Positions 3,001-20,421 of a stretch of 34,085 nucleotides of DNA are shown here, one piece after another (positions within the stretch are counted from its first letter, which is position 1; every line of letters begins with the position of its first letter). The stretch spans positions 1-34,085 of the forward strand of contig JAIXUI010000141.1 in the NCBI GenBank assembly GCA_027484125.1, read 5' to 3'. Below the pieces are notes generated by a model. The model did not search any database and was not told the DNA's origin. It was given only the letters and a program-made list of their open reading frames with translations. This DNA comes from Bacteroidota bacterium. GTDB lineage: Bacteria; Bacteroidota; Bacteroidia; UBA7662; JAIXUI01. The position numbers and the translations under genes were made by a program.

Positions 3001-6000
3001 TAATGTTCAAGGAGGTGGTTCATACAATGCCAGCAAATTGACTATTGATAATGGTGGTACTTTAAACTTGAATGCCAATACCCTTAACATAGGTGGTAAC
3101 GTGATATTGAATGGTACTTTCAACGTAGGTGGTGGAACGCTCAATGTAGAGGGTTCAGCTGAGGTTACTTCTGCAACACCTGTTCTTGGTGGAACAGGAT
3201 ATGCTGTAAACAATGTGGTTACAGTTACAGGAGGTTCAGGAAGCAGCGCTACTTTCCTTGTAACCTTGGTAGATGGTTCAGGTGGTATTCAATTGGTGAA
3301 TATTCTTAATCCCGGAAGCTACAATGGACTGCCCACTAACCCAGTTTCGGTAACTGGTGGTTCAGGCTCCGGTGCTACTTTTAACCTCGGTATCTCTACA
3401 ATTGCTGTTGCAGTTGGAACTACAGGTTCGTATCAGCAAACCAATGGTACTGTTGTAGTTGGTACTGCGGGTGGCCACAACAGAACCTTCCAAAACAATG
3501 GTATCACCAATGTTTCAGGTGGTTCACTTGATATCAATGGTAATGCTCAGTTTGCTCAAACAGCCAATGCATTATTTAGTCAGTTAGGTGGTAACATCAA
3601 TGTTGACCCTAACAGCGGAAGTGCTTCTACTTCTGTTCCAGAAGGTATTGATGCGGTTTCATTTGCTGCTACTCCAATCGGAGTTCAGTTGAATGGTGGT
3701 ACCATGACTATCGTTGACCCTGTTTTCTCAGGAACTGGTTTATCAATGAGCTATACGCCAACAATCACCACAAACTGCGTAGGTCATACCCTTGTTTTAG
3801 GTGGTTCATCAGGAACAAACTCAAATAACTCAGTAAACGGCTTCCGTGTAAGCGGTGGTTTGAGTTTCCGTTTGGGTAATGTAACGGTTAATGGTGGTTC
3901 GGGTTCAGGACGTTTTGTGAATCTTGGCCCTGGCACCACTCAAACCATTCTTGGAAACTTTACCATCAACTCAGGTTCTGTTTACCGTCAGGGAGCTACA
4001 AACGTGAACATTGCTGGAAATATTACCAACAATGGAACATGGTTTACTTCAAATGTTCCAACTACCGGTGGACTTGTTAACCTTTCATTCGCGGGTAGCG
4101 GAAACCCTGTTGCACAATCATTAGGAGGTACTGGTACTTTTAGAAACTCAACGCCAACTATTGCAATTGCTTCAGCAGGTACTGGATATTCTCTTGGAGA
4201 TATCTTAACTGTTTCAGGTGGCACATTCACAACTGCTGCTACCTTTAAAGTTACAGGAGTTAACCTTGGTACTATTACTGCACTTACCCTTGAAAGTCCT
4301 GGTGCATATACAGCAGAACCTTCTGGTACATTGAATTTAACAGGTGGTACTGGAACTGGAGCAACCGCTACTTTAACAGCAGGCTCCTTCATTTCAACAG
4401 GTTCTTTTGCTAGTTTAACCTTCAACAACAACTCCTATTTACAAGGAGCAACAGTTAATGTTAACAACTTGGTTGTTGCGGGAACATTGAATACAGCGGG
4501 TTCTCTTATTAACTTGGGAACCAACCACTTAACCTTAGGAACTAGCCCAACTTCGCCTGGCTCGCTTACTGCGGGAACAGGATTCTTCATTTCTACAACC
4601 GGTACGTTTACTCGTTGGGTCGGAACTGGTGCTGTAACGATTACAGCAGCAGCTGGACAATTCCCATTTGCAACTACACAAGGTTTAGACCGTACGTTCT
4701 TTATGGGACAAACCTCTGCTACAACCGGTGGAACCATCAGTGTTCGCTTTGCAGATGCTAACGGATTAGCTACCATAACCCCATCTTATACCGATGGAAC
4801 GGTTACTGTTGATAATCGTACAGCAGGTGGTTGGGTAGTTTCTACCGGAAATGGATATGCCAGTACTACCATGTCGGTGCAACTAAGAGCTGCTAGCATT
4901 TTCCAAAATGTTACCACTCCTGCTGACATGAGAGTGACAGCTGCAAACGGTATTGCTCCTGGTTCACATGGTACTACCTCTACCTTTGTTTCTGGTGTAG
5001 CTAACGTAAGCAGGACAGGTATTTCCTCTGCTTTGTTTAACAGCACCGGAACTTTCTACTTGGGTGGAAACAGCCAGAACTTCCCAGTTATCTATACAGC
5101 GATTGCTTCAGGAAACTGGAATGATGCTGCAACTTGGGATTTGAACGCGGTTCCTCCTTCAACAGCCAATGTAGTAATTGCTACACCATACAATGTTACT
5201 GCTGATGGTACTTCAGCTGCAAATGGTGTTACTGTTCAATCTAATGCTCAATTAACCTTATCAGGTGGTACCCTTGCTATTGGTCCTGCAGGCGGTGGAA
5301 ACCGTATGTTGGATGTGAGTGGTACAGTTGCAATTTCTTCTGGTACTTTGAATGTAAATGGATTTGCCAACTTCGGTAGCGGTTCTTCTTTCAACATGTC
5401 AGGTGGTAACTTCAACATTGATGGTAACTCGGGCACAGCAGCTACTAGTGTAGCATCCAACCAAAACTTGTTGAACTTCTCAGTTGGTTCAGCAGGTAAT
5501 GCAATCACTGCTACAGGGGGTACCATTACCATTGTGGACCCACATGCTAATACAGGGTTGTCTTTTGCGATTAACCGATCTAATTTATCAAATGCAAATT
5601 GTGACTTCAGTGGCACTTTGGTACGCTTTGGAGATGGTACCAGCACAACAGCTGGTGTAGCAAGCCAAGGCTTTAGTGTTGCTACTTTGTTCTCTGGAGG
5701 CATTGCAGTTCCACTTGGTAATGTTCAAGTAAATGGAGGCTCTGGCACTAACCGTTTTGTAAGTACTACAACCAGTACTGCGCAAGCCGTTGATATTACC
5801 GGTACACTTACCATCAACGCAAGTTCTGAAATGCAGATCCCTACAGGTGGTACCTTGAACATCAATGGAACCTTGACGAACAATGGAACCTTAACCTCCA
5901 TTGGAACCCTAGCAGTTAGAGCGACTGGAAATCTATCTCCTATTGCCTCTACTATTGGTGGTTCAGGAACCTTCCGTAACCTTGCGGCTTCACCTACTGC

Positions 6001-9000
6001 CAACTTTACCAACTTCATTATGAATAATGCTTCCGGTGTTACAATTAGCACCCTTAGCAATACAGGAACTGGTACAGTAAGCGGTACATTAACCATGTTA
6101 GATGGTATTATCGATTTAGGAGCTAATACCTTCACGCTTGGTACTTCAGCTTCTTCTATCGGAACGTTAACCTATACTGCCGGAAGCTTTGCTGCTTCTA
6201 CCGGCTTCTTTAGCCGTTGGGTTGGTACAGCTACTTTAACCCAAGCAGGAACCTTCCTCTTCCCATTCAGCTTTGTTGGAAATAATCGTTCAGTCAACTT
6301 TAACTTGCTTAATAGCGGTTCGTTAACTGCCGGAGGCCGAATTTCAGCTCGCCATAATGGTGCAGTTGGAAATACCAACATCACTTCCTTCACTGATAAT
6401 GGTGTATTAGTAGATCGCACCACCAACTCTTCCTGGACATTTGCTCAAAGTGGATTGAACCTCGGTACAAATTCACTGGTTCCTACTGCTTCAGTGATTG
6501 GTGTCGGTGGTTTCTCAGATGTAACAACACTTCGTTTTGTTAATGGAACGGATAATACAACAACAGGTTCTGCAGGAACAGGCACATTTGCCACTCCGGC
6601 AGTATCTCGTGCCTTCCCTAATGCAGCACTTTCTTTAGTTTTCAACAACACTACCTACCGAGTTGGTGGAAATGCTACTACTGCTACATTGGCTCCTACT
6701 ACTTTTGCAATTGCAACAGGATCTTGGGAGGATGTGAATACATGGAACACAGGAATTGTTCCTGATGCTACCAATGACGTAGTGATTACTGGTGGAACTA
6801 CAGTTACTGTGGACGCACAGGCTGCTGTATGTAACGGTATCGCTATCAATCCTAATGGTGGTTTGACGCTTTCAGGAAGCACCTTAAATGTTGCATCTAG
6901 TGCATTTAATAGTGGTAATCTTACAGTTTCCGGCGGTACGCTTAATGTAACCGGAGCGGCTGGTCTTGGACTGAACAACTTCTCTATGTCAACGTTTAGC
7001 ATGTCAAGTGGTAATGTAAATGTTGGTTCAGCAACTTCTGCTAACCGCATCTTCCATTCAGCAGGTACATTTGCTATAAGCGGTGGTAATTTGAATGTGT
7101 TTGGAACCGCCAATTTGTTTGGAGCTAATGTGAGCCAAACTGGAGGTGTTATTGCTGTAGATCCAAACAATGCCAATAATGCAGCTTCAAGTGCAACTGC
7201 TAATGTGGTTTCTTCCGCAGCAGTAGTTAGTGCAGGAACTTCTTACACTGTTGGAACTATCGTAAATGTTTCTGGTGGCGTATTTACCCAGCCAGCACAA
7301 CTTCAGGTTGCTACGCTTTCTGGAACCGGTGTTGCCACTGTAAGGGTAGTGAACCCAGGTATTTACTCCGTACTTCCTACAAACCCAGTAACTGTAACTG
7401 TTTCTTCAGGAGCTGGTTCTGGTGCAACCTTCAATCTTACTCCTGGTATCTTGACGATGGGACTTACTGTTAACACAGCTAGTAGCTTCAGCGGAGGTAC
7501 TATTCAAATTGTAGATCCTGCCATTAGCACTTCAGCTGCAGGAACAACACAAGCATTGAGAATTACTGGTGCTGCTGTTAATAACAGTGCATTTAGTGGT
7601 AGCCACACCATTCAATTTGGAAATGGTGTAAGTACTACTAGTAGCAACGGTGATGGTTTTGTTCTGGAAACTTTCGGAAATAACTCAGTACGTGTTCCTG
7701 TTAATCATGTAACCATCAGTGGTGGTAACCTTGGAAGTCGCTTCCTTTCTCCAGGTCTTTTGGGAATGAACGTTCTTGGAAATCTAACTATCTCCAATAA
7801 CAGTGAATTCAACACATTAGCATCAGGTGGAGAAGTAGTACTTGGTGGAAATATCAGTGTTGGCACAGGTGGAAACTTCACTGCTCTTCGCAATATCTCA
7901 TTAGGTAGTGGTGCTACTTATTCTGCGGTTAATGCTCAGACTATTTCCGGTCCCGGAACCTACCGCAATGCAGTATCTGGTTCTACCGGTAATCTTCGCT
8001 CTGTAACCATCAATAATGGTAATGGAATTACTCTAAGTACCCCAATTATTCTTGATGCAGCTTCTACCCTAACACTCACCAATGGAACGGTAACCACTAG
8101 TTCTACCAATACGCTGACGCTTCGCAATCCATTCACCACAGCAATCTCTGGAGGTTCTTCCAGTGCTTACATTGTGGGGCCGGTTGTAAGAAGAATGTCG
8201 GCTTCCTTAACTGGTGATTCAACTTATGCCTTCCCAGTTGGAGGTGCTGTTTATGCTCCGTTTGAGCTGGTTGCTGCAAAAACACTGAATGCTGGTACAA
8301 CAGACGTTCGTGTTGTCTTGAATGATGTGGCTCCAACCGGTAACCCTGACAATGTGGTTCTTGGCGCACTCAACAACCGTTACTGGCAAGCTTCAGTTAC
8401 TTCTTCTCCTAACTACTTCTCTAGTGCGGTAGTAAGAGTTACAGAACAAGGCCTCGGAGCCAACAATCGTTTGGCTCGCTCTTCTGTTCTAAGTGGAACT
8501 TATACCAGTATTTCATCAGCTCCTGTAACTCCGTTCACTACTATCAGTTCTGATACTGTAACTAGTCTTGGATTCTTTGCAGTTGGTAGCCTGGTCAATT
8601 GTTCAGGAACTCCAGTTGCCGGAACCGCTGCTGCGGCAAACAACTTTGTAGCTCCTGGAGGAACTACTGTGATTAGCTTAAGTGGTCAAACTGCTGCTAA
8701 TGGTATCACTTATCAGTGGCAAGAAAGTAACGATGGAGTATCTGGTTGGGTAAACGTGACTAGCGGACAAAATGGCAATACCACCGCGTACACTACCCCA
8801 GCTCTTGGTGGTACTAAATACTATCGTTGTGTTGTAAACTGTGCGTTTGGTTCTTCCTCTAACTCCAATGTGGTAGGTGTATTTGTTCCATTGAACCTAG
8901 ATTACGATGTTACTCGTCAGACTGGTCAGACTTACACTTCTATCATGAACTCTGGTGTCAACTTTAGTTGGGTTGGTACAAGCACTGATGAAGCATACAC

Positions 9001-12000
9001 TGCACCGCTAGATTTGGCAACACTTGGATTTAATTTCAATTACCAAGGAGTTCCAGTAACTCAATTGCGTGCTCAGGTTAATGGATTCTTAACCTTTAAC
9101 CCTGCTACTACTGCAGGCTTTACCAACAACTTCGCTGCTGCTGGAACTATGGGTGTGCTTGCTCCAATGTGGTTCGACTTTGTAACCTCTCCAAATAATA
9201 ACACACTTGCAGCACTTCAGAGCTCCATCAAGTATCAGCTTACTGGAACCAACAATAACCAAGTACTCACCATAGAGTGGGCCAACCTTGAGTTATTCTC
9301 GTTTTCTGGACCTAGCTTAAACTTCCAAGTGAAGCTTTATGAAGCAACCGGTGCAATCGAGTTTATCTATGGCAACATGATTGCCATGAATGGAAATGCT
9401 AATGTGGTTTATGCATATACCTCAGGTATTTCAGCATTAAACTCCACTGGTGGTGCGGGTAACTTTATTTCTCAACAACTTGAGAACGTAAACAACTTCT
9501 CGAATGCTACTTCGGTTAACAACCTGGCTATCGTGCCAAGCTGTAACACCAAAGTTACCTTTACTCCTGGTACTAACGCTGTACTACCTACAGATCCTTC
9601 TAACGCAACTCTGAACGACAACTGCTCAACTGCAACCCTATTAACAGTAGGTAATGGTGCAAATGCTGATCCTTGTATCGTTTATCGTACAACAGGTTCA
9701 ACGGTTTCTACAAGCGTTCCTAGCTGTTCTGCGAATAGCTCCAACTTACAACAACGTGACGTTTGGTATCAATTCACCTTGACCAATACTTCCAATGTTA
9801 CTGTTACTGTTGTTCCTGGTGGAAACTATGATGCAGTTCTTCAGTTAATCAGTGGTGCTTGCGGTTCTCAAACTTCTTTGAACTGTGTTAATGCTGCTGG
9901 TACTGGATTAACAGAATCTATTACTGCAACTGGTCTTACCGCTGGTACTTACTACATCCGAGTATGGGGTGCAACTGCCAACTCTACCGGTTACTTCAAC
10001 CTTGGTTTGAATGCTGTATTAACCCCTCCAGTTAATGACAACTGTTCAGGTGCTCAGGCTCTTACCCTTGGAACCTCTGTTAACTCTGGTAATACTGCAG
10101 GAGCCACTACATCAACTGGTATTACCATTCCAACTTGTGCAGTTGGTACTGCTGATGATGATGTATGGTACACCTTTACTGCCAACAGTACCTACACTCG
10201 CTTGACTGTTTCTCCAGTAGCCCCTTATAACGCAGTTGTACAAGTGATGACTGGCGCATGTAATGCACTTGCTAACTTGGTTACATGCGTAAACAACTCT
10301 GGTGCTGGTGGTGCTGAAATCTTGGATTTGACAACTGTTGCTGGTACAACTTACCGTGTACGTGTTTACCACTTCGCAAGTGGCTCTACGCCAACAACTG
10401 GATTCTCAATCCTCGCTGAAACGCCAACTGCCGCTTGTCCTGCTCTAACCTCACCATCTGATAACCTGTCGAACCTTGATCCTGCTGTAGATAATACTTT
10501 CAACTGGGCTGCTTCTGCAGGTCCTGGTACAGGAATTACCTACACTTTCCAAGTGTCAACTTCTTCCAACTTCGGCAGCATGCTTGTAAACCAATCCGGT
10601 TTATCTACACTTAGCACTACCATTACTGCAAACACTCTAGCTCAGAGTACCAATTACTTCTGGAGAGTGTTGGCGGTTAATGCAAACGGTACTTCTGCCA
10701 ACTGTACTACACGTCAGTTTGCAACTTCCGGAACATTGCCAAGCTGTGCTACAGGTTTACTTCCTGCTAATGGAGCTACCAACCAGGGAACTTCCCTTAC
10801 TCTTTCTTGGGGTATTCCTTCAGGTAATCCAACCGGTTATGATGTTTACCTAGCTACTAACCAAACCAACGTTGCTAACCAAGCTGTCTTTACTCGTGTG
10901 AGTCAGAATCAGGCTGGTAATAGCTATGTGGCTTCTGGTTTGCAAAACAACACGACCTATTTCTGGAAAGTTGTTCCACGTAACCTTGCCGGCGTAGCAA
11001 CAGGTTGTGCTACACAATCATTTACTACTATTCCAACTCCTCCAGTTAATGATGACTGTGCATCAGCGGTATCTCTCACTGTAAATGGTGCTTTGTTAAG
11101 TGGCGAAAGCTCTTCTAATGCTACTCAAACTTTAGCTCCTTGTGCTGCGGCTCAGGCGAATGATGTTTGGTATAAGTTTACAGCCAATGGTAACCGCGCT
11201 CAAGTGACGGTTGTAGGTGCTGGTGGTTTGAACGCTGTAGTTCAAGCTTTCGGCGGAAGCTGTGGCTCATTAGTGCCAGTTGCTGGTAGTTGTACTAATG
11301 CAACTGGAAACAACGGAACTGAATACATGATTGCAACTGGACTAACAGCTGGTCAAGAGTATTTCATCCGTGTTTACAATGCAAACGCTGGTACCTCTAG
11401 CGGAACTTCCTTCTCTATTAAAGTGGAGAACATCATCACTTGGAGCGGAAGCGCTTGGGTTGGTGGTACTCCAGATGCAAGCACCGGAACTACTCGAGTA
11501 CGTGTTCCTGCCGGAACTTCTGTCACTTTACCAAATGGATCTACCATCGGTGAGCTTGTCGTAGAAGGTAACGGTCAAGTAAGCGTAGGTACAGGAACTG
11601 TGACTATCAATGGTAATGTATCTTTCGTATCGACAGGTGTAACTACTTTCGGCGGAACTGGTACAATTGTTTTTGGAGGTACAGGTACTCAAACACTTTC
11701 TGGTGCAACGGTTCAGTTCAACGGAACAGTTAGAATTGCTTCAAGTTCCACTTTGTCAACAACTACTTTGATTCTCTTGAATAATGGTACCTTGATGCAT
11801 GGAACCGGTACTGCTGGCGGTGGTGGTTCTTTCACCGGAACATTACGTCAAAGAAGAGCAGGTTCTACCAATCCATTGTTGTATAATTTCTGGTCTTCCC
11901 CAATGAGTGGATCTACCATTGCTGCTTTGAACGGAAACAATAACTATTCATTCAATGCGGCTACTCAAAGCTGGACTCCTGAGATTTCATCTGCTGCAAT

Positions 12001-13105
12001 GATTCCTGGTGTAGGCTACTCATCCACCGGTAGCAACTCTGGTTTTGGAACTGCCGGTACACGTCAGTTCAGTGGTATGCCGAATAATGGAAACATCAAC
12101 GTTCCGATGTCTGTAAATCCAGGCATTAACGATGATTGGAACTTGGTTGGTAACCCTTACCCAAGTTCTATCGATGGTGCAACCTTTATTGTTGACAACG
12201 CTGCTAATATGGTTGGCCCTCTCTACTTCTGGAACACAGCCTTTACCACTAACGTTAGTAACAACAACTTTACAGGTGCTGATTATGTAACGCGTACATT
12301 GGCTAACGCTCCGTTCCAGGTAGGGGTAGCTCAAGGTTTCTTTGTTGATGCTACCGCTACTAGCCTTTCCTTCACTAACAGCATGAGAAATGCTACTGCT
12401 GCTTCCATGTTCCGTACCCAGAACAGCATTCAGAGAATTACCCTTCTGGCACACAATAGTCAGAATGTGGCTAATAATACTTTGATTGCTTTCACTGCTG
12501 ATGCAACTGATCAGTACGATAGACTTTGGGATGGACGTAAGAACAAGGGAAATCCAGTTGTAAGCCTCTATAGCCGCTTGAATGGTGAAGACATGGCAGT
12601 TAATGCAATGGGTGAACTTAATTCAGCCAAAGTAGTTGAGCTTGGTCTCGATGTTAATGTTACTGGCCAGCATACGTTTATGATAGACCAACTAGAAAAT
12701 GTGGATGCCTCTACTGGTATTTACCTTCAGGATATGGTTACCGGAACTATGCACAACCTTCGTAACAGTGCGTATGTATTCAACGCAACTTCCACAGGTT
12801 CATTTACTGGTCGCTTCTATCTCCACTTCCAGCCTCTTACTACTTCCGTTCCAACTATCCAGCAAACCAAGCCTGGTATGTTCTTCAGCGCTGATGTGCT
12901 TCGCATCACCGGCCTTGCAGAAGGAACTGTAGTTGAGTCTGTTCAAGTGATGGATCTTAGCGGTCGTCGCGTATTCAATGCGCAAGGACTTGAGCACAGT
13001 GGTACTGTTGAACAAAGAGTAAATCTCCCACTCGGTGTTTACTTGATTGAAGTCTCTACCAACCGCGGTGTATTTACTGAGAAAGTTTTCAAATCAGTGA
13101 AGTAA
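2..13105 (+). CDS. Giant secreted multidomain adhesin-like protein with T9SS sorting domain (5' partial)
   Basis: The frame is open through the left edge (Thr codons precede the first ATG at 14), so the N-terminus and signal peptide lie outside. Numbering from that ATG: FnIII-like domain 1-80; four beta-solenoid cassettes starting with G8-like GxWxxxxTW motifs near 87, 965, 1697 and 2233; Ig-like domain about 2863-2958; a beta-sandwich stretch 2962-3195; PPC-like domains opening with N-D-[ND]-C at 3201, 3341 and 3679, with two FnIII-like domains (3475-3575, 3577-3675) between the last two; another G8-like module near 3807; a WNLVGNPYPS stretch near 4043; and a type A T9SS sorting domain at about 4300-4363 (VMDLSGRRVF...LPLGVYLIEV). 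Composition is Ser/Thr/Gly/Asn-rich with few charged residues. Such proteins are exported by the Sec and then type IX systems and are usually cell-surface-bound or released. Adhesion is inferred from architecture; no catalytic domain is visible. A terminator follows directly. Confidence 0.93.
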   Translation, partial: TTTTMSFSWTDNAVSAPLETGYAIYRSDDGGTTYNYVANMPANATNYTDIGLLSGTTYLYRIYAVNEGQFSSAFAAVSGSTISAPTVTSVGSGNWNSPATWSTNTVPAASQNVVIASGHTVTINSLSATCNNLTVDGTLRYDNVSNSALDVVNNVTVSASGNFNFGAGVTLTHTLRIGGTSANPNGLQSNGNLTVNGTFDMSGSSTVNVIFGGTFNSTVSGNGATLDFSTVTVNKGSSNVAIVDMARPFTVNGANTSGFLSLVNGTFKISGSFAQSNPIFSTIAYVIPANAGFWLDNANFTVTGQAGSAGNQLGLLRLSSGTFNVGTAADHHLLFSTGATFIIDGAAATLNVAGAFGYPATTLAFNYTQSAGNINVATLGNSSANPSFALSSAGIIANITGGTVTIVRRAMTTGVSPTPLTDYWVGLFGAGFLNMTGGNLRLGNGSTPTPNSFITVNNVVSGGTGYAIGQVLTVSGGSFTTAATVTVTSIGAGGVITQAMVNNPGVYTSLPTGNITLTGGTGSGAVVTLGSGTPFRVRGDVFNLDIDNANTNKSAVLLTTLVVRGTALVSPNTCLSLNGFVLLYRGALLENNGVIDAFPAGSSFSFSGLVPQTYSGTGFNSPAAAFGMQNPSGLTLNAPIRSQRINFFEGSINNSVLNNIIFGTGSTTVVVQYGNSGAPTVSGNFATTPAFNVGTALYAVLIAQETQQHITGPEIPTTTANGVWARTINFFSLTNNFGMKIVGGDLIIGDGSGSLTTAPSLTLGGGNVDLNGNNLVIGSSTAVPGSLAYTSGLVVGSGSMTRWYNGTVKSAASVDGLFPMGANTNNRSILINPATSLSSGGTVSVTVNSAGGLTPMTSFNEVSGVSGFVNYNNIDTRSNSGWAISTGNGLGNGSWTIRATTTNMIQSFNAGDLRLVSSTAANPIGRSLANTGAAPNTQVNKILTSTALLNNTFHVGTQNSNALAVVTAIASGDWGNGATWNSGTPPTAAEAAVIPSGVTVNVQGGGSYNASKLTIDNGGTLNLNANTLNIGGNVILNGTFNVGGGTLNVEGSAEVTSATPVLGGTGYAVNNVVTVTGGSGSSATFLVTLVDGSGGIQLVNILNPGSYNGLPTNPVSVTGGSGSGATFNLGISTIAVAVGTTGSYQQTNGTVVVGTAGGHNRTFQNNGITNVSGGSLDINGNAQFAQTANALFSQLGGNINVDPNSGSASTSVPEGIDAVSFAATPIGVQLNGGTMTIVDPVFSGTGLSMSYTPTITTNCVGHTLVLGGSSGTNSNNSVNGFRVSGGLSFRLGNVTVNGGSGSGRFVNLGPGTTQTILGNFTINSGSVYRQGATNVNIAGNITNNGTWFTSNVPTTGGLVNLSFAGSGNPVAQSLGGTGTFRNSTPTIAIASAGTGYSLGDILTVSGGTFTTAATFKVTGVNLGTITALTLESPGAYTAEPSGTLNLTGGTGTGATATLTAGSFISTGSFASLTFNNNSYLQGATVNVNNLVVAGTLNTAGSLINLGTNHLTLGTSPTSPGSLTAGTGFFISTTGTFTRWVGTGAVTITAAAGQFPFATTQGLDRTFFMGQTSATTGGTISVRFADANGLATITPSYTDGTVTVDNRTAGGWVVSTGNGYASTTMSVQLRAASIFQNVTTPADMRVTAANGIAPGSHGTTSTFVSGVANVSRTGISSALFNSTGTFYLGGNSQNFPVIYTAIASGNWNDAATWDLNAVPPSTANVVIATPYNVTADGTSAANGVTVQSNAQLTLSGGTLAIGPAGGGNRMLDVSGTVAISSGTLNVNGFANFGSGSSFNMSGGNFNIDGNSGTAATSVASNQNLLNFSVGSAGNAITATGGTITIVDPHANTGLSFAINRSNLSNANCDFSGTLVRFGDGTSTTAGVASQGFSVATLFSGGIAVPLGNVQVNGGSGTNRFVSTTTSTAQAVDITGTLTINASSEMQIPTGGTLNINGTLTNNGTLTSIGTLAVRATGNLSPIASTIGGSGTFRNLAASPTANFTNFIMNNASGVTISTLSNTGTGTVSGTLTMLDGIIDLGANTFTLGTSASSIGTLTYTAGSFAASTGFFSRWVGTATLTQAGTFLFPFSFVGNNRSVNFNLLNSGSLTAGGRISARHNGAVGNTNITSFTDNGVLVDRTTNSSWTFAQSGLNLGTNSLVPTASVIGVGGFSDVTTLRFVNGTDNTTTGSAGTGTFATPAVSRAFPNAALSLVFNNTTYRVGGNATTATLAPTTFAIATGSWEDVNTWNTGIVPDATNDVVITGGTTVTVDAQAAVCNGIAINPNGGLTLSGSTLNVASSAFNSGNLTVSGGTLNVTGAAGLGLNNFSMSTFSMSSGNVNVGSATSANRIFHSAGTFAISGGNLNVFGTANLFGANVSQTGGVIAVDPNNANNAASSATANVVSSAAVVSAGTSYTVGTIVNVSGGVFTQPAQLQVATLSGTGVATVRVVNPGIYSVLPTNPVTVTVSSGAGSGATFNLTPGILTMGLTVNTASSFSGGTIQIVDPAISTSAAGTTQALRITGAAVNNSAFSGSHTIQFGNGVSTTSSNGDGFVLETFGNNSVRVPVNHVTISGGNLGSRFLSPGLLGMNVLGNLTISNNSEFNTLASGGEVVLGGNISVGTGGNFTALRNISLGSGATYSAVNAQTISGPGTYRNAVSGSTGNLRSVTINNGNGITLSTPIILDAASTLTLTNGTVTTSSTNTLTLRNPFTTAISGGSSSAYIVGPVVRRMSASLTGDSTYAFPVGGAVYAPFELVAAKTLNAGTTDVRVVLNDVAPTGNPDNVVLGALNNRYWQASVTSSPNYFSSAVVRVTEQGLGANNRLARSSVLSGTYTSISSAPVTPFTTISSDTVTSLGFFAVGSLVNCSGTPVAGTAAAANNFVAPGGTTVISLSGQTAANGITYQWQESNDGVSGWVNVTSGQNGNTTAYTTPALGGTKYYRCVVNCAFGSSSNSNVVGVFVPLNLDYDVTRQTGQTYTSIMNSGVNFSWVGTSTDEAYTAPLDLATLGFNFNYQGVPVTQLRAQVNGFLTFNPATTAGFTNNFAAAGTMGVLAPMWFDFVTSPNNNTLAALQSSIKYQLTGTNNNQVLTIEWANLELFSFSGPSLNFQVKLYEATGAIEFIYGNMIAMNGNANVVYAYTSGISALNSTGGAGNFISQQLENVNNFSNATSVNNLAIVPSCNTKVTFTPGTNAVLPTDPSNATLNDNCSTATLLTVGNGANADPCIVYRTTGSTVSTSVPSCSANSSNLQQRDVWYQFTLTNTSNVTVTVVPGGNYDAVLQLISGACGSQTSLNCVNAAGTGLTESITATGLTAGTYYIRVWGATANSTGYFNLGLNAVLTPPVNDNCSGAQALTLGTSVNSGNTAGATTSTGITIPTCAVGTADDDVWYTFTANSTYTRLTVSPVAPYNAVVQVMTGACNALANLVTCVNNSGAGGAEILDLTTVAGTTYRVRVYHFASGSTPTTGFSILAETPTAACPALTSPSDNLSNLDPAVDNTFNWAASAGPGTGITYTFQVSTSSNFGSMLVNQSGLSTLSTTITANTLAQSTNYFWRVLAVNANGTSANCTTRQFATSGTLPSCATGLLPANGATNQGTSLTLSWGIPSGNPTGYDVYLATNQTNVANQAVFTRVSQNQAGNSYVASGLQNNTTYFWKVVPRNLAGVATGCATQSFTTIPTPPVNDDCASAVSLTVNGALLSGESSSNATQTLAPCAAAQANDVWYKFTANGNRAQVTVVGAGGLNAVVQAFGGSCGSLVPVAGSCTNATGNNGTEYMIATGLTAGQEYFIRVYNANAGTSSGTSFSIKVENIITWSGSAWVGGTPDASTGTTRVRVPAGTSVTLPNGSTIGELVVEGNGQVSVGTGTVTINGNVSFVSTGVTTFGGTGTIVFGGTGTQTLSGATVQFNGTVRIASSSTLSTTTLILLNNGTLMHGTGTAGGGGSFTGTLRQRRAGSTNPLLYNFWSSPMSGSTIAALNGNNNYSFNAATQSWTPEISSAAMIPGVGYSSTGSNSGFGTAGTRQFSGMPNNGNINVPMSVNPGINDDWNLVGNPYPSSIDGATFIVDNAANMVGPLYFWNTAFTTNVSNNNFTGADYVTRTLANAPFQVGVAQGFFVDATATSLSFTNSMRNATAASMFRTQNSIQRITLLAHNSQNVANNTLIAFTADATDQYDRLWDGRKNKGNPVVSLYSRLNGEDMAVNAMGELNSAKVVELGLDVNVTGQHTFMIDQLENVDASTGIYLQDMVTGTMHNLRNSAYVFNATSTGSFTGRFYLHFQPLTTSVPTIQQTKPGMFFSADVLRITGLAEGTVVESVQVMDLSGRRVFNAQGLEHSGTVEQRVNLPLGVYLIEVSTNRGVFTEKVFKSVK
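1382..7456 (+). repeat. Four copies of a ~72-residue GTGY...VSGG...NPGxY...GGxGSGA module inside the giant protein
   Basis: Related protein modules lie at residues of about 457-530 (bases 1382-1603), 1058-1130 (3185-3403), 1387-1460 (4172-4393) and 2405-2481 (7226-7456). Each opens with G-T-[GS]-Y, continues with a [VL]-[TN]-V-[ST]-G-G strand, has a P-G-x-Y turn and a [LE]-P-[ST] step, and ends with a G-[TA]-G-[ST]-G-A strand. The solenoid sequence between them does not share this pattern. Copies are diverged at DNA level, so this is an old protein-domain duplication rather than a recent tandem expansion. From memory, similar glycine-rich Y-G modules occur in phage and bacterial surface proteins; I could not search for them. 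Confidence 0.8.
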
Positions 13106-13123: not shown

Positions 13124-13162
13124 AATGCCCCTGCCTATTCAGGCAGGGGCATTCTATTTTTA
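13124..13162 (+). terminator. Rho-independent terminator after the giant gene
   Basis: A perfect 12-bp stem has arms at 13124-13135 and 13142-13153, a 6-nt loop (tattca) and a following T-rich stretch (ctattttta). It begins 18 bases after the TAA stop and separates the adhesin gene from the next operon. Confidence 0.9.
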
Positions 13163-13219: not shown

Positions 13220-16200
13220 ATGAAAACATTATTTACTCGTAGCTGCTTTTGCTTACTGGCCTCAATCGTGCTAGAATTATTCAGTACAGTTTCATTTGCC
13301 CAACGTCCAAACATTGGTGCACCCTATATCAAGGGCCAAGCGCGGATTAACATGGGTGTTGAAAAACATGATAAAGGTGACTACCAAGAAGCCATAGATC
13401 AATACAAAAAGGTAAACCCCGGAGATTCGGCTTATGTCCTTGCTCAGTTTGAAATGGGCTTGAGTTATTATGCTGCTAAAAGATACAGAGAAGCTCTAGA
13501 TGTTCTATTTGCAGTAAAAGACAGGCAAGGAAATGCAAGGGATTATCAACTTTTAATAGCAAATGTTTATGATGACTTAGCTATGGCTGACTCTTCTGAT
13601 TGGTGGTACAACAAGGTCAGAAATCAGTTCCCTCTTCACCACATGGCTGATTACGAATCTGCAGTAGCTAGAATTAAGCGAGAAAAGTACGCTGAAGCTT
13701 TAACCTTGCTCTTTAATTCTCTTCAAAAACAACCTTTTTATCTAAAATCACATTATCAGGTTGCAAATCTTGCTGCTGAAGCTGGGCAGCCTGCATTAGC
13801 AATACTTGCGTATCATTTTGCTAGCATTCTTCAAGACAATGCAGATGATAAATTTGAAATTATTAAACTTAATGAAAGTATAGCTTCAGACGAGTTTAGA
13901 AAAGATTTGAAAAATGTTCCAGAAGATTTATTTGGGCATTCAGAGGCCTTATCAGAACTTAATCAATTGATTTTGTCTAAAGTTGCGTTAAACAATAACT
14001 TTAAAGTAGGTATTAAGCTTAATTTCAAATTAACCCGACAACTGCAGCTCATTCTACAAAAACTTCCTAAGTCAACGGAGGGGTTAAATGAACTTGCTAT
14101 TGAGTATCTTAATTTTTATCAGAAAGCCATTGAAGCCAGTTCTTATCAAGCGGTAATTCTTGCAGGGTTAAAAGGTTTAAATTCTGAGGAAATTAATGAT
14201 GCAGTCAAAAAGGAGAAAGCGACTATCAAAAAGTTTGTTGATTGGGCTGGTAATTACTTTTTAGAAAAAAGAGAAACAGTTGTTCTTTCTGATTCAAATG
14301 GAGTAAGAAAGAAATATATGACGCGAATAAAGAAAGGAAACATAGCGGCTTTTGGAGAACGAATTTTAGGTGAAGGTTTAGATGGAGAATGGTCTTTTGT
14401 AGATCAAAATGGTGAAGTGGAAGCAAGAGGAATGTATAAAAATGGAAAACGTGAAGGTAAGTGGGTTTACTTCTCAAATGGCAAATTGTCTCTTACTGAT
14501 ATTTATGAAAATGGAAAAGAGAATGGCCCCTATAAGCGTTTTTTTGAAAACGGAATTGTACGTGAGGAAGGGCAACAAAAGAATGGATTATTTGAAGGAG
14601 AAATAAAAATTTATTACCCTAGTGGAAAATTAAATATAGTCATCAACGCTGTTTCAGGAAAACGATCTGGAAAGACTAAACGATATGATATTGAAGGGAG
14701 CTTAATTTCAGAGGTTCAGGAAAAAGATGATTTATTAGAAGGTAAGGCTGTTTATTTTTATCCTAGTGGGATAAAGAAGTCTGAGGGGCTAAACAAAGCA
14801 AATGAGCGTGTTGGCAAATGGGCTTTCTGGCATAAGAACGGAGAAAAAGAAGCAGAAGGCGATTTTGTTAATGGAAATCTCAATGGAGATTGGATTTATT
14901 GGTATTCTAATGGAGCAAAAGAAAAGCAAATGACTTATGAAAATGGGAAAATTACAGGGATTGCTAAGTCATGGTATCCTGATGGAAAGATTAAGTTTGA
15001 GGAAAATTGGAAGGATGGTGAGTTGAATGGAATCTCAACTTATTATGCAAGAGGAGGTTGGAAATATGCAGCATTTAATTACAACAAAGGGGTTATTAAA
15101 CGTATGCAACATTGGAAACCAGATGGGAGTTTAGTTGCTGATGTTTCAAACAATGTTGATGAATTTAAAGTAGTTTTTTATGATGAGTTTGGACAATTAA
15201 AATCAGAAGGGGCCTACAAAAAAAATGTTCCTATAGGATTGTGGACTTATTACGATAGTGGAGTTAAATCATCTACTGTAACTTTCGTGAATGGAGTGAA
15301 GGAAGGTATTGAACAGGAATATTATAGTAGTGGATCATTAAAGTCAGAATATTTCTATAGAAATGGAGAAATTGATGGCTATTTCAGGAGTTATTTGCCG
15401 TCAGGTGGGCCTAAAGTAGATGGTTTTTTTCAAAATGGAGAACGTGAAGGAACTTGGGAATATTATTATAACCATGGTGTTGTAGATTCTCGTGAATTTT
15501 ATGTTGATGGCAAATTGAATGGTGCTGATAGAGAGTATGAGGTGAATGAAGAGTTAATGTATGAAGAATTCTATGAATACGGAGTGTACAAAGGATTGAT
15601 TCAGTACGATACTCTGGGTAAAGTTTATAATAATAGTCTCTTAAACAACTTTTCTGGAAAGGTGAGAATGCTTCATCCTAATAGAAGAATTAAGTATGAG
15701 GCTAATTATGCCAATGGTTCTAAGGTTGATGAACCTTTAATTCATTACCTTTCAGATGGAACAGTTTTTAGAAAGGAAACATATAAAAATGGTTTACGAA
15801 GCGGACTGTTTGAAGAATTTAATCGTTACGGAAAGTTGTCAGAACGTAGTTGGTATAAAAACGGCGAATTAGATTCGCTAAGTCTGGATTATTCGTTGAA
15901 TGGAAAATTGCAAGATTCAACACAGTATGATTTAGGAAAAAAACATGGTGTTGAAACTTCTTTTCATTTTAGTGGGATTAAAATTTCAGAATCTCGTTAT
16001 GAATGGGGCCTTTTACAAGGTAGTAAGCGCCTTTTTAATGATGAGGGAAAGGTTGTAGCTGTTTTAGAGTATAATAATGATTATTTAGTTGGATTTTCTC
16101 AAATTGGACCAGATGGAAAAATGTCTGCAATGAAATATATTGACGCTCAAACTGCTCAAATACGCGCTCACCATCCAAATGGAAAACTTGCCTTCGAATT

Positions 16201-16516
16201 TCAAATTGTTAGAGGTGTTTTTTCAGGAGCATACAAGATGTTTATGAGTAATGGTAATTTGTTGGCAGAGTGTTTTTATGAAAATGGGCAACGACAAGGA
16301 CTTGCGAAGGATTATTTTAAAAATGGCAAATTAATGCAACAACTTAATTTTGAAAGAAATGACCAGCATGGACCATATAAAAAATACTTTGAATCCGGGT
16401 TGTTAATGGAGAGTGGCCATTATTATTATGGTACACTCCATGGGTTAATTCAATACTATAATACATTAGGTAAAGTTGAAAAACAAGTAAATTACCGATA
16501 TGGGAAACTGCTTTAA
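13220..16516 (+). CDS. Exported TPR plus MORN-variant (MORN_2/YwqK-like) repeat protein
   Basis: The 1098-residue product starts with a signal peptide (residues 1-28, hydrophobic core LLASIVLELF, likely cleavage after S-F-A). TPR-like helices follow at about 35-240, for example G-x-Y-x-x-A-I-x-x-Y around 52-61 and a Y-Y-A-A-K-R-Y-R-E-A-L helix pair. A helical linker runs to about 385. From Gly389 to the C-terminus there are about 30 successive 23-24 residue units of the type G-x-W/Y-x-x-Y-x-x-N-G-K-x-x-x-x-x-x-Y-x-N-G, the MORN-variant pattern. In other proteins such arrays form long beta-hairpin meanders used for binding; the ligand here is unknown. There is no T9SS sorting domain, so the protein is probably periplasmic or anchored by partners. 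Some family members are annotated as antitoxins; I see no toxin partner and do not adopt that label. It is first in a three-gene operon and overlaps the next gene by 17 bases. The A+T content is high compared with the flanks. Confidence 0.9.
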   Translation: MKTLFTRSCFCLLASIVLELFSTVSFAQRPNIGAPYIKGQARINMGVEKHDKGDYQEAIDQYKKVNPGDSAYVLAQFEMGLSYYAAKRYREALDVLFAVKDRQGNARDYQLLIANVYDDLAMADSSDWWYNKVRNQFPLHHMADYESAVARIKREKYAEALTLLFNSLQKQPFYLKSHYQVANLAAEAGQPALAILAYHFASILQDNADDKFEIIKLNESIASDEFRKDLKNVPEDLFGHSEALSELNQLILSKVALNNNFKVGIKLNFKLTRQLQLILQKLPKSTEGLNELAIEYLNFYQKAIEASSYQAVILAGLKGLNSEEINDAVKKEKATIKKFVDWAGNYFLEKRETVVLSDSNGVRKKYMTRIKKGNIAAFGERILGEGLDGEWSFVDQNGEVEARGMYKNGKREGKWVYFSNGKLSLTDIYENGKENGPYKRFFENGIVREEGQQKNGLFEGEIKIYYPSGKLNIVINAVSGKRSGKTKRYDIEGSLISEVQEKDDLLEGKAVYFYPSGIKKSEGLNKANERVGKWAFWHKNGEKEAEGDFVNGNLNGDWIYWYSNGAKEKQMTYENGKITGIAKSWYPDGKIKFEENWKDGELNGISTYYARGGWKYAAFNYNKGVIKRMQHWKPDGSLVADVSNNVDEFKVVFYDEFGQLKSEGAYKKNVPIGLWTYYDSGVKSSTVTFVNGVKEGIEQEYYSSGSLKSEYFYRNGEIDGYFRSYLPSGGPKVDGFFQNGEREGTWEYYYNHGVVDSREFYVDGKLNGADREYEVNEELMYEEFYEYGVYKGLIQYDTLGKVYNNSLLNNFSGKVRMLHPNRRIKYEANYANGSKVDEPLIHYLSDGTVFRKETYKNGLRSGLFEEFNRYGKLSERSWYKNGELDSLSLDYSLNGKLQDSTQYDLGKKHGVETSFHFSGIKISESRYEWGLLQGSKRLFNDEGKVVAVLEYNNDYLVGFSQIGPDGKMSAMKYIDAQTAQIRAHHPNGKLAFEFQIVRGVFSGAYKMFMSNGNLLAECFYENGQRQGLAKDYFKNGKLMQQLNFERNDQHGPYKKYFESGLLMESGHYYYGTLHGLIQYYNTLGKVEKQVNYRYGKLL
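14384..16513 (+). repeat. About 30 tandem MORN-like units (23-24 codons each)
   Basis: Residues 389-1098 divide into about 30 consecutive units averaging 23.7 residues. Anchor residues are a Gly at the unit start, an aromatic pair, then S/N-G-K/x in mid-unit and a Y-x-N/x-G-x turn at the end. The pattern weakens in the units near 620-665 and 870-960 and is clear again at the C-terminal end. The units differ strongly in sequence, so the array is ancient. Confidence 0.85.
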
Positions 16517-18422
16517 AGTCATTTTACTTTTTATTTTAGGGTGTAATTTAGCTTTTGCTCAAGATTTAGAAGTACTTAGAAAACAATTTCCTGAAGACCG
16601 TCAAGTATATCTTAAAAAAATAGAAGAACTTAAGTTTCAATTCAATAAAGACACCTTAGAAATTATTGAAAGAAATGAAGAAGAGCGTATCTTACTAAAC
16701 GATAGGATTATTGATGATGGAAGTGATGAAATAGTGTATGCTCCTCCATTTTCTTCCTACCTGAATGGCAAAGCAACTTCAAGAATTTATGATTCAGGTA
16801 GGTATAAAAATGGTATTGGAGTAATTTCTGATGAACAGAATAGATCTCAAAATGAAGTTTTCTATGATGATATTCGTATGAGAAAAGTAAGTTTCCCCGG
16901 ATTAAGCATGGGAAGCATAGTGCAGCTAAACTATTCATTAAGGATACATCACCCGTTATTTTTATCCTCGAGTTATTTCTCTACTGGTTCGCCTATTTTG
17001 TCTTCAGTATACAGGGTAATTCTTCCTGAAGGCGTTCGTATTGGTTGGCAACTTCGGGGAGATAGCAGCATGGTTAAACTTAGAATTGAAAAGCGAAAGG
17101 GGCTACAAATTCTTGTTTGGGAAGCTACCAATTTGCCAAAATATCGTTTTTATCGTAATGGATTGTCTTATCGACATTATATTCCTCAGATTTATGTATG
17201 GTTGCATTCATACGTAGTTGGTGGTAAGGAAGTCTTATTTAATCATTCTATGGACGCATTTAATAAGTTGAATTATTCTTTTATTCGGGAGGCTATGAAT
17301 AGTGATTTGCCCACACCTCAAAAGCAGCTGGTAGATTCGATTGTAACCTTTATAAAATCACCTCGTGATCGTGCTTCTGCTCTATTTCGTTGGGTACAAG
17401 AGAACATTCGTTACATCAGCATAGAGGATGGGTTTTCCGGTCAGGTACCTCGAACTCCAGAAACTGTTTGTAAAAATGGTTATGGAGATTGTAAAGATAT
17501 GGCAGTGCTTTTAACTCGGCTGATGAAAAAGGCGGGATTGCCTGCTTACCCTGTTTGGATTGGAACACGAGAAGTTCCTCGAGACTTCAGAGAATTGCAG
17601 CATTTGGCATCAAGTAATCACATGATTGCAAGTCTTAAAACCGATACTGGTTGGATATTTCTTGATGCAACCGGAAGAGAGCAAATGTTGGGTCAACCTT
17701 CGGTGTTTACGCAAGGAAGGTATGCTTGTATCGCCATTGACTCTGCTCAATTTGAAAAGGTTTTGGTGCCATGGGAAAAGGCAGACAATAATCAATGGAT
17801 TGATACGCTTTGGTGTAGTATAAAAGGGGATACTTTGCTAGGAAATGGTACAACTAGCTTGTCTGGGTATTACAGAGATAGAATTACCAGCGCGTTTAGA
17901 GACAGAGAACCTGCAAAATATGAGGAGTTGATGAAGGGGATTTTAAGCAGAGGAAATGATAAGTGTAAGATTCAAAAGCCAATGGTTTCGCAATTGTTTG
18001 AACTTGGTAAACCATTGTTGATGACTTTTCAATTGGAACTGGATCATTATGTTAGAAAAATTGATGATGAGTTTTATCTAAATCTTAACCTTAAAAAAGC
18101 TTGGGAAACTCTATATGCTGATACCTCAGGTGGAAGAAGTAATGGGCGAGAATTTGATTTTCTCTTTAAAAAAAGAGACGTTATTGTGTTAACTATTCCG
18201 CCAAATTTTAAACCTGTTAAACTCCCTGAAAACGCGGAAGATAACAATTCATTTTGCCAATGGAAAATCTCTTATCAATTAGATAAAGGAAGAATACTTC
18301 TTCATTCATTTTTTGAATTAAAAAAAGCTGAAGTTAATTTCGAAGAATTATCTGACTTTAATTCGGCATTGATGAAGATAAAAGAAGCTCAAAATCTTTC
18401 ACTAATATTAAAAAAGCAATGA
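16500..18422 (+). CDS. Exported DUF3857/transglutaminase-like protein, catalytic triad intact
   Basis: A 640-residue product with a signal peptide (hydrophobic run V-I-L-L-F-I-L-G-C-N-L-A-F-A, about residues 7-20, then Q). Residues of about 40-230 form a beta-rich region of the DUF3857 type. A transglutaminase-like core spans about 280-400: Cys331 in G-Y-G-D-C-K-D-M, His374 in S-S-N-H-M and Asp389 in F-L-D-A-T-G, at spacing normal for the papain-like fold. The C-terminal 200 residues look like a beta-sandwich. Relatives act as cysteine proteases, amidases or transglutaminases, and the substrate cannot be read from sequence. Export suggests action in the periplasm or at the outer membrane. The start ATG lies inside the preceding gene (17-base overlap) and the stop overlaps the next gene's start (ATGA), implying translational coupling. 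Confidence 0.88.
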   Translation: MGNCFKVILLFILGCNLAFAQDLEVLRKQFPEDRQVYLKKIEELKFQFNKDTLEIIERNEEERILLNDRIIDDGSDEIVYAPPFSSYLNGKATSRIYDSGRYKNGIGVISDEQNRSQNEVFYDDIRMRKVSFPGLSMGSIVQLNYSLRIHHPLFLSSSYFSTGSPILSSVYRVILPEGVRIGWQLRGDSSMVKLRIEKRKGLQILVWEATNLPKYRFYRNGLSYRHYIPQIYVWLHSYVVGGKEVLFNHSMDAFNKLNYSFIREAMNSDLPTPQKQLVDSIVTFIKSPRDRASALFRWVQENIRYISIEDGFSGQVPRTPETVCKNGYGDCKDMAVLLTRLMKKAGLPAYPVWIGTREVPRDFRELQHLASSNHMIASLKTDTGWIFLDATGREQMLGQPSVFTQGRYACIAIDSAQFEKVLVPWEKADNNQWIDTLWCSIKGDTLLGNGTTSLSGYYRDRITSAFRDREPAKYEELMKGILSRGNDKCKIQKPMVSQLFELGKPLLMTFQLELDHYVRKIDDEFYLNLNLKKAWETLYADTSGGRSNGREFDFLFKKRDVIVLTIPPNFKPVKLPENAEDNNSFCQWKISYQLDKGRILLHSFFELKKAEVNFEELSDFNSALMKIKEAQNLSLILKKQ

Positions 18423-20374
18423 AAAGTACGTGGTTAGGTTTCCTGTTTTATTTTCTTTTGATAGGAAACAATGGTTTAATGGCACAAGCTCCGGAACGTA
18501 GCAATTACGAATTTCGCTCGCTTACCGTTAATGAAAGCAAGGATAAAACGTTGTTAAACAAGCCAACTTGGACTCCTTGGTTTGCAAAAAGAATCTATTA
18601 CCAGATTGTTGGTGATGAGTTAAAACGTTTTTCTATTAATCATTATGTTACAGCAGTAACAGATGATAAAGGGGTTGAAGAGAATAACAAAATTAGGTTG
18701 CCGCTCTATTCTAACAACCTCGTTGATGTGAAGGTTAGGGTTGTGAAAGATGGTAAGATATTGGCTTCACACACCGCTTCTGATTTTAAAAAGGTTAAAG
18801 AAGAAGAGGTAGAACTTCAGCTGTTAGCAGTCTCTTCTTTAACCATAGGCTGTTTTATAGAAGTAATTATTCATACAGAAGAAGAAAATGATACCTATGA
18901 TGATGCATATCTACAGTTAGGTGAGGAGGTTGGGCAAATGAATTTTAGTCTTGTAGTTCCAGAAATGTTGAAATTTGATATTCAATTATACAACGCACAA
19001 GCGCCATTGCGGGACACTCTAGTTAATGGTAACAGACATTATCTCTATCAACTTAGTAATGTTCCAGCATTTGAAAGTGAGGAGTATTCCGCAAAGTTGG
19101 CTAATAAAATTAGGGTTGAATACAATTTTTCGGAGAATATTAATAATAATAAGAAATCAATGCGTTACCCTGAAATTGGAAGGGTTTTATTTGATCGACT
19201 AATAGGAGACTTTTCTTCTTATCAATCAGAGCTTAAAAAATTTATTAAAAAAGCCAATAAAGGAGCTACAGAGAAAGAGCGAATTTTAGCTATTGAACAT
19301 TTTTTAAAGACTAATATTGTAGTGAAGTCTGAAAGAAAAATAGATGATGAAATTAAAAGCATAATTAAAAATAAGTTCTGCTCCCGTTATGGGTTCAACC
19401 GTTTGCTTACAGCAGCTTATATTGCTTCTGAAATACCAGTAGAAGTTGTTATTACTTCGGACCGTTTTAATAAAGTTTTTGATAAGAATTTTCATTCTTG
19501 GTCATTTATGAACAATCTCATGTTGTACTTTCCAGGTACTCAATCTTATATAGAACCAGGAAGTATTATAAGTAGAGCTGGTTATGCAGGAAATGAATAT
19601 CTGGGTCAGAATGCTTTACACATCAAGCCAGTGGCTTTAGACGGGCAGTATTCCGGTGTTACGTCTTTCAAAATGGTTTCCATACCAGACTTAGAGCAAA
19701 ACAATGATAAAATGGTGCTCAATGTAAGCATAGAACCAGAGCGCAACACTGCGAAAATCAACTACCATCGTGAGATGTCTAACTTCGCGGAAATGGGGCT
19801 CAGAGGAGTGTATTACTTATCAGGTCAGACAAGTCAGAAAGATTTTTTCTACGATTTTGTTAAAAATACCGGTTCCGGCTGTGGTGTAATCCGTTTAGTA
19901 GCATCTAACTACAATCTGGGCGATGTCAATGAAATGGCTCAACCTTTTGTAATTGATGCAGATTTAAGCTGTCAAGATTATCTTGAAAAAGCTGGTGACA
20001 ATTTGATCCTCAAAGTTGGAGAATTAATAGGAAAGCAAAGTGAATTGTATGAAGATAAGGATCGGAAAAATGACATTGTCCTCCAGTATCCACATGCATA
20101 CGAAAGAATTATTCGGGTTAAAATACCTAAAGGTTATCGTCCAAAGGGTTTGGAAAAACTAGTTATTAAAGATGAATATACCGACGATAAAGGAAGAAAG
20201 CAGTTTGGATTTACAAACAATTGGAAACAAGATGGTGATGAATTGATTTTAACAGGCACTGAGTATTACCAAGGTGTATTTTATCCTAAAAGCCGTTATG
20301 CTGAATTTAGGAAAGTGATCAACGATGCCGCTGATTTTAATAAGTTGGTGATTGTGTTTGAAAAGTTACCTTAA
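18419..20374 (+). CDS. Exported DUF3857/transglutaminase-like paralogue with apparently degenerate active site
   Basis: A 651-residue product with a signal peptide (residues 1-23, W-L-G-F-L-F-Y-F-L-L-I-G...M-A-Q). The overall plan matches the upstream gene: a beta-rich N-terminal half, a transglutaminase-like helical core around 290-380 and a C-terminal beta region. In the core the expected G-D-C-K-D is replaced by F-C-S-R-Y-G-F. Cys321 sits two residues farther from the conserved I/L-P than the catalytic Cys of the neighbour. His359 is kept (N-F-H-S-W), but the Asp of L-D-A-T is replaced by F-P-G-T. I infer a non-catalytic or altered partner, possibly a regulator or scaffold of the intact enzyme. 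The start overlaps the upstream stop by 4 bases, and a terminator follows 22 bases after the stop. Confidence 0.82.
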   Translation: MKSTWLGFLFYFLLIGNNGLMAQAPERSNYEFRSLTVNESKDKTLLNKPTWTPWFAKRIYYQIVGDELKRFSINHYVTAVTDDKGVEENNKIRLPLYSNNLVDVKVRVVKDGKILASHTASDFKKVKEEEVELQLLAVSSLTIGCFIEVIIHTEEENDTYDDAYLQLGEEVGQMNFSLVVPEMLKFDIQLYNAQAPLRDTLVNGNRHYLYQLSNVPAFESEEYSAKLANKIRVEYNFSENINNNKKSMRYPEIGRVLFDRLIGDFSSYQSELKKFIKKANKGATEKERILAIEHFLKTNIVVKSERKIDDEIKSIIKNKFCSRYGFNRLLTAAYIASEIPVEVVITSDRFNKVFDKNFHSWSFMNNLMLYFPGTQSYIEPGSIISRAGYAGNEYLGQNALHIKPVALDGQYSGVTSFKMVSIPDLEQNNDKMVLNVSIEPERNTAKINYHREMSNFAEMGLRGVYYLSGQTSQKDFFYDFVKNTGSGCGVIRLVASNYNLGDVNEMAQPFVIDADLSCQDYLEKAGDNLILKVGELIGKQSELYEDKDRKNDIVLQYPHAYERIIRVKIPKGYRPKGLEKLVIKDEYTDDKGRKQFGFTNNWKQDGDELILTGTEYYQGVFYPKSRYAEFRKVINDAADFNKLVIVFEKLP

Positions 20375-20395: not shown

Positions 20396-20421
20396 AAAAG
20401 AGGCTCTTTGGAGCCTCTTTT
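20396..20421 (+). terminator. Rho-independent terminator closing the MORN/transglutaminase operon
   Basis: A perfect 11-bp stem has arms 20396-20406 and 20411-20421 and a tttg loop; the right arm ends in TTTT. The A-run in the left arm pairs with the T-run, so it could work in both directions. Confidence 0.85.

Follow-up and report, generated by a model that had tools for sequence, protein, structure and literature searches.

The window, i.e., the whole stretch of 34,085 nucleotides that was analyzed, contains a cassette of three genes, here called A, B, and C, encoding a long repeat protein, a transglutaminase-like enzyme, and a degenerate relative of that enzyme. This raises the question of what three such exported proteins do together. 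The best explanation, given a probability of about 0.6, is that they constitute an envelope module in which the enzyme B and its pseudoenzyme partner C are mounted on the long scaffold A. Gene order, co-inheritance, the catalytic triad of B and its loss from C, the predicted folds, and the fixed length and dispensability of A are the observations on which this explanation builds, and it is from these that we infer physical contact between the proteins, their chemistry, the substrate, and a location beyond export. The trio is a conserved module in many free-living Bacteroidota and probably acts at the cell envelope.

Organization of the Locus

The three genes and the hairpins that surround them are listed in Table 1. 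An initial annotation, made from the DNA alone, described an operon with overlaps of 17 bases between A and B and 4 bases between B and C, bounded by terminators. The overlaps match the coordinates of the open reading frames, and both hairpins fold. The upstream one was picked up by a pattern scan and has a folding energy of -25.3 kcal/mol (z -6.2), while the downstream one (-18.4 kcal/mol, z -4.0) escaped this simple scan because its T run belongs to the stem.

Table 1. Features of the three-gene cassette, numbered from the first nucleotide of the window.
Feature	Position	Strand	Description
Intrinsic terminator, 5' of the cassette, at the end of the preceding giant gene	13124-13153	+	13-pair stem with 8 GC, T tail
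Gene A	13220-16516	+	1098 aa; signal peptide, TPR-like helical domain, 31 MORN-type β-hairpins
Gene B	16500-18422	+	640 aa; signal peptide, DUF3857, transglutaminase-like core, Cys331-His374-Asp389
Gene C	18419-20374	+	651 aa; signal peptide; full-length B paralog; triad positions occupied by Arg323, Phe363, and Glu379
Hairpin terminator, 3' of the cassette	~20396-20421	+	Identified by folding energy

Signal peptides had been assigned to all three proteins, and they are seen by inspection, with predicted cleavage between SFA and Q in A, AFA and Q in B, and LMA and Q in C. The Gln following the cleavage site is conserved in 95, 87, and 91% of the A, B, and C homologs, respectively. The assignment of export rests on this conserved residue, as a crude sequence pattern undercounted A-x-A sites followed by Gln. 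Anchoring as lipoproteins was considered and rejected, lipobox-like sequences being nearly absent according to a crude pattern. No NCBIfam or Pfam match to a C-terminal sorting domain of the type 9 secretion system was found in A, B, or C. Directly 5' of the cassette, positions 14-13105 of the window hold a repetitive, Gly/Ser/Thr-rich open frame of 4363 aa, the C-terminal end of which resembles a Bacteroidota sorting domain.

Distribution of the Trio

When 345 Bacteroidia genomes were searched, C was found at E ≤ 0.001 in 86 of them, with long matches in 72. Sixty neighborhoods around C homologs from this class were inspected. The genes occur as A-B-C, in order and on one strand, in 44; 11 contain B-C (two of these are cut by the ends of the contig or of the fetched region), and five contain C alone. 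The same order was seen at 48 of 80 named loci, in species that partly overlap with those of the first set. The proposal that the trio is conserved in order is borne out, and the opposite possibility, that the genes usually lie apart, is not what the neighborhoods display. The distances between the genes center near zero and are usually tens of bases at most. Full-length homologs of A, B, and C have median lengths of 1100, 646, and 657 aa, and these lengths are nearly constant despite identities of only ~25-30%.

The trio is carried by Solitalea, Hymenobacter, Niastella, Lacibacter, Chitinophaga, Pseudochryseolinea, Sporocytophaga, and Cesiribacter, and the carriers in Hymenobacter, Solitalea, and Niastella are cultured. 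All 20 relatives from the same order as the window genome lack a full-length C, showing that the distribution is patchy and that near kin do not require the module. A fourth conserved neighbor was not found, since clustering of the flanking genes gave only families common to 5-7 loci. A contig from a Sphingobacteriales pond MAG (L119) encodes a C that is 100% identical, in the same gene order, and represents the species of the window or a very near one. Another locus (L191, CALPQG020000217.1) is titled as a Bifidobacterium breve MAG and carries a typical Bacteroidota B-C pair; it is probably misbinned or mislabeled.

The Enzyme B

B matches DUF3857 (PF12969) with 50.6 bits against a cut-off of 24.6, and Transglut_core (PF01841) with 44.1 against 23. 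Its Cys331-His374-Asp389 triad was proposed to be intact, and conservation confirms this, as the triad is kept in 127 of 127 homologs aligned to the B profile. Judged from sequence, B would be an exported papain-fold enzyme of the transglutaminase superfamily using Cys-His-Asp, most likely a periplasmic peptidase, amidase, or transamidase. The only solved relative found by sequence, both for B (E 5e-10) and for C (E 5e-5), is 3kd4 (BDI_1141 from Parabacteroides distasonis), which combines DUF3857 with a transglutaminase-like core and was deposited as a "putative protease."

In line with the initial annotation, B might instead be a true cross-linking transglutaminase that covalently joins A, or surface proteins displayed by it, to an assembly outside the cell or in the outer membrane, with C as a structural subunit. 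The Transglut_core fold with its triad and the long repeat protein encoded next to B are what would be expected of such a system. However, the triad cannot distinguish cross-linking from hydrolysis, 3kd4 was deposited as a putative protease, and B and C persist in genomes without A, which means that A is not the sole substrate of B. Cross-linking is for these reasons considered an unlikely function. A role as peptidase or amidase is predicted to be at least as likely, and is the more cautious guess since the triad does not imply cross-linking and in view of how 3kd4 was deposited.

The Pseudoenzyme C

C reaches 19.3 bits with the DUF3857 model, just under the cut-off of 24.6, and has no Pfam match to Transglut_core. 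The relationship to B is nevertheless seen along the whole protein, as an hhalign alignment of the C and B profiles covers 615 columns with a probability of 99.9. The AF2 model of C has a pLDDT of 92, and its best Foldseek match is 3kd4 (E 9e-25, target TM 0.68, 11% identity).

The hhalign alignment places Arg323, Phe363, and Glu379 of the window protein opposite the Cys-His-Asp triad of B, and across 65 C homologs these columns contain mostly Glu, Tyr/Phe, and Ala/Ser. None of the members of a larger C-family set, aligned on the B profile, has the catalytic Cys or His, while a minority retain Asp in the third position. The initial annotation had called C degenerate, with a disturbed Cys and no Asp. 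The degeneracy stands, as there is no catalytic triad, but the Cys in question (Cys321) is not at the catalytic position, which is that of Arg323. Since Phe363 and Glu379 replace the His and the Asp, the window protein has lost the entire triad.

A catalytic C with its triad in a shifted register would be compatible with the window protein, which carries Cys321 and His359 close to where such residues would be expected. Cys is, however, found at position 321 in only 5 of the 65 homologs and His at position 359 in one, and in 33 of the 65 either Cys or His is missing altogether from the core columns. A displaced triad was not found among these homologs, and continued catalysis by C is exceedingly improbable. 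The absence of the catalytic Cys and His throughout the family identifies C as an old, dedicated pseudoenzyme rather than a decaying gene. C further keeps conserved residues of its own, among them R107, R349, F354-D355, G534, P570, Y617, and K642, indicating that it is under selection.

B and C are each monophyletic, and C and its sister group are united with a support of 100/100; C is an ancient full-length paralog of B. Its closest kin include degenerate proteins of ~740 aa adjoining B-like enzymes (L118, L244, and L246). None of these three loci has a MORN scaffold adjoining the pairs, and L246 has two such pairs in a row. A more distant DUF3857 set contains active/degenerate tandems as well (L236:3921-7800, L237:5037-8860, and L238:3842-10250), organized as pairs or a triplet in which one putatively active member (Cys-His-Glu) is accompanied by one or two degenerate ones. 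Enzyme/pseudoenzyme pairing is a repeated feature of the DUF3857 family at large. All degenerate members may have a single origin, as a quick tree suggested (support 93), but a careful tree supports this grouping with only 57/22.

The Repeat Protein A

The initial annotation credited A with TPR-like helices and about 30 MORN-like repeats, and the repeat number is borne out. The AF2 model (pLDDT 88) displays helices in residues 39-351 and hairpins in residues 353-1098, the latter forming a ribbon of 62 strands, or 31 hairpins, with a mean spacing of ~24 residues. The Pfam MORN_2 model is matched with 112.4 bits (gathering cut-off 29.6). When it comes to the helical part, the Pfam matches are weak, the best one, to TPR_19, reaching 21.8 bits against a cut-off of 25; the profile of the A family matches TPR structures, and AF2 gives a helical-hairpin domain. 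Counting with a repeat HMM gave 18-28 repeats per protein and was replaced by the structural count, as divergent units score below detection and are missed by the HMM.

Full-length A homologs are 1022-1169 aa long with a median of 1100, and 96 of 103 are within 3% of the median. Such a constant length is unusual for a repeat protein. In L108, L129, and L188, A is divided into two adjacent open frames, which may be frameshifts or real splits.

MORN_2 proteins are often labeled as YwqK-type "antitoxins," and this label is the only feature that would point to a toxin-immunity or defense cassette. All three genes are exported, their length is constant, there is no variable tip, their inheritance is congruent, and PADLOC models match none of A, B, and C, making a defense function very improbable.

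Co-inheritance and the B-C Core

A was found in 58 and C in 72 of the 345 genomes, and they occur together in 52 (Fisher p 4e-38, ignoring relatedness). In about 20 of the 72 C-carrying genomes a full-length A was not detected, and some of these are incomplete assemblies. Across 84 loci, the trees of the three proteins are correlated, with r 0.75, 0.79, and 0.86 compared to a permuted maximum of 0.16, although this congruence, like the co-occurrence, also reflects shared species history. The agreement is tightest between B and C (r 0.86; partial 0.66 given A).

The exceptions are informative as to which of the genes belong together. Where C is found locally apart from B, B is present elsewhere in the genome in all four cases tested (Runella and three others). 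One C neighborhood, L098, contains no B, and its genome has a second copy, L094. Five species of the genus g42 (L099-L103) keep A without an adjacent B or C, and no B was found in the four g42 genomes searched. Their congener L043 has the full trio, and also the same downstream gene of ~247 aa as the A-only species. In this genus B and C have apparently been lost jointly and A has been kept. Chryseolinea shows the reverse: the arrangement is the same except that it lacks A, and a search of these genomes at E 1e-60 did not detect A. L256, from a genome outside the class, likewise has B-C only. Taken together, the persistence of B-C without A, the joint loss of B and C, and the presence of B elsewhere when C stands alone indicate that the pair B-C forms the core of the module in functional terms. 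A is a frequent, separable partner: fixed in length, co-inherited, and dispensable.

The same exceptions could be taken to mean that the three proteins are co-transcribed and co-inherited, yet act separately, with C serving a purpose independent of B, for instance the binding of sugars or peptides. A has been lost without a trace on B and C, and C is kept away from B in some genomes. The conserved residues of B and C do not relax in the absence of A. Interface residues that depend on A were rejected for both proteins, as a single C column and no B column responded, which is no signal. Against separate action speak the occurrence of B and C in the same genome wherever this was tested, the tight B-C tree agreement, their joint loss in one genus, and the related active/degenerate pairs in other DUF3857 groups; independent roles are accordingly judged rather improbable.

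A Proposed Envelope Module

In the favored explanation, an envelope module, B would perform Cys-His-Asp catalysis in the periplasm, likely on peptide or amide bonds. C would be a non-catalytic binder of B, or of its substrate, and would regulate or position the enzyme. A is envisaged as a secreted rod in which a TPR-like head, a plausible docking site, is followed by a β-ribbon of ~31 MORN hairpins, constant in number. At ~4.8 Å per strand this ribbon would be ~30 nm if straight, and A may display or tether B-C at a set distance, for instance from the membrane or the cell wall.

A bolder version, which we hold only tentatively and consider unlikely, is that an enzyme needing an inactive twin on a MORN rod of constant number represents an undescribed envelope machine, where the rod would serve as a ruler or bridge near the scale of the periplasm. 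If this is true, the rod of A sets a fixed distance between the enzyme and its anchor.

The B-C pair is old and is present in cultured environmental genera. The genomes without A and those without B-C make up a natural control set, so that the roles of the pseudoenzyme and the scaffold are directly testable, and the outcome would give a first function to the widespread DUF3857 family.

Comparison with Known Systems

The domains of the trio are known, and it is the three-gene arrangement that is apparently new. Searches of the open-licence literature gave nothing on the trio, on DUF3857 combined with MORN or transglutaminase, on MORN plus transglutaminase in Bacteroidetes, or on periplasmic transglutaminase-like pseudoenzymes, and DUF3857 is named there in a single paper. 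Dedicated enzyme/pseudoenzyme pairs are well known for eukaryotic proteases and kinases. To our knowledge, they have rarely been described for bacterial periplasmic transglutaminase-like proteins. The solved relative 3kd4 differs from the trio in that no reported pseudoenzyme partner or MORN scaffold was found for it.

The LIC20035 family adhesin, a Leptospira MORN protein (NCBIfam NF033566), displays a weak whole-protein similarity to A of 105 bits, which is due to the repeats and lies far below the cut-off of 250, and A was not assigned to this family. Foldseek matches of A to the YD-repeat shells of Rhs proteins and teneurins (E 1e-18 to 1e-12) arise from repeating hairpins; the TM of ~0.1 shows that the resemblance is local, and a closed shell was rejected as a model. 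MORN1 of Toxoplasma, Plasmodium, and Trypanosoma also gives a local fold match (target TM ~0.6). MORN-repeat proteins contain from 2 to over 20 repeats each (PMC7725318). A shares with them the hairpin of ~23-24 residues, but is distinguished by being bacterial and exported, by its TPR-like head, and by carrying ~31 repeats at a constant number.
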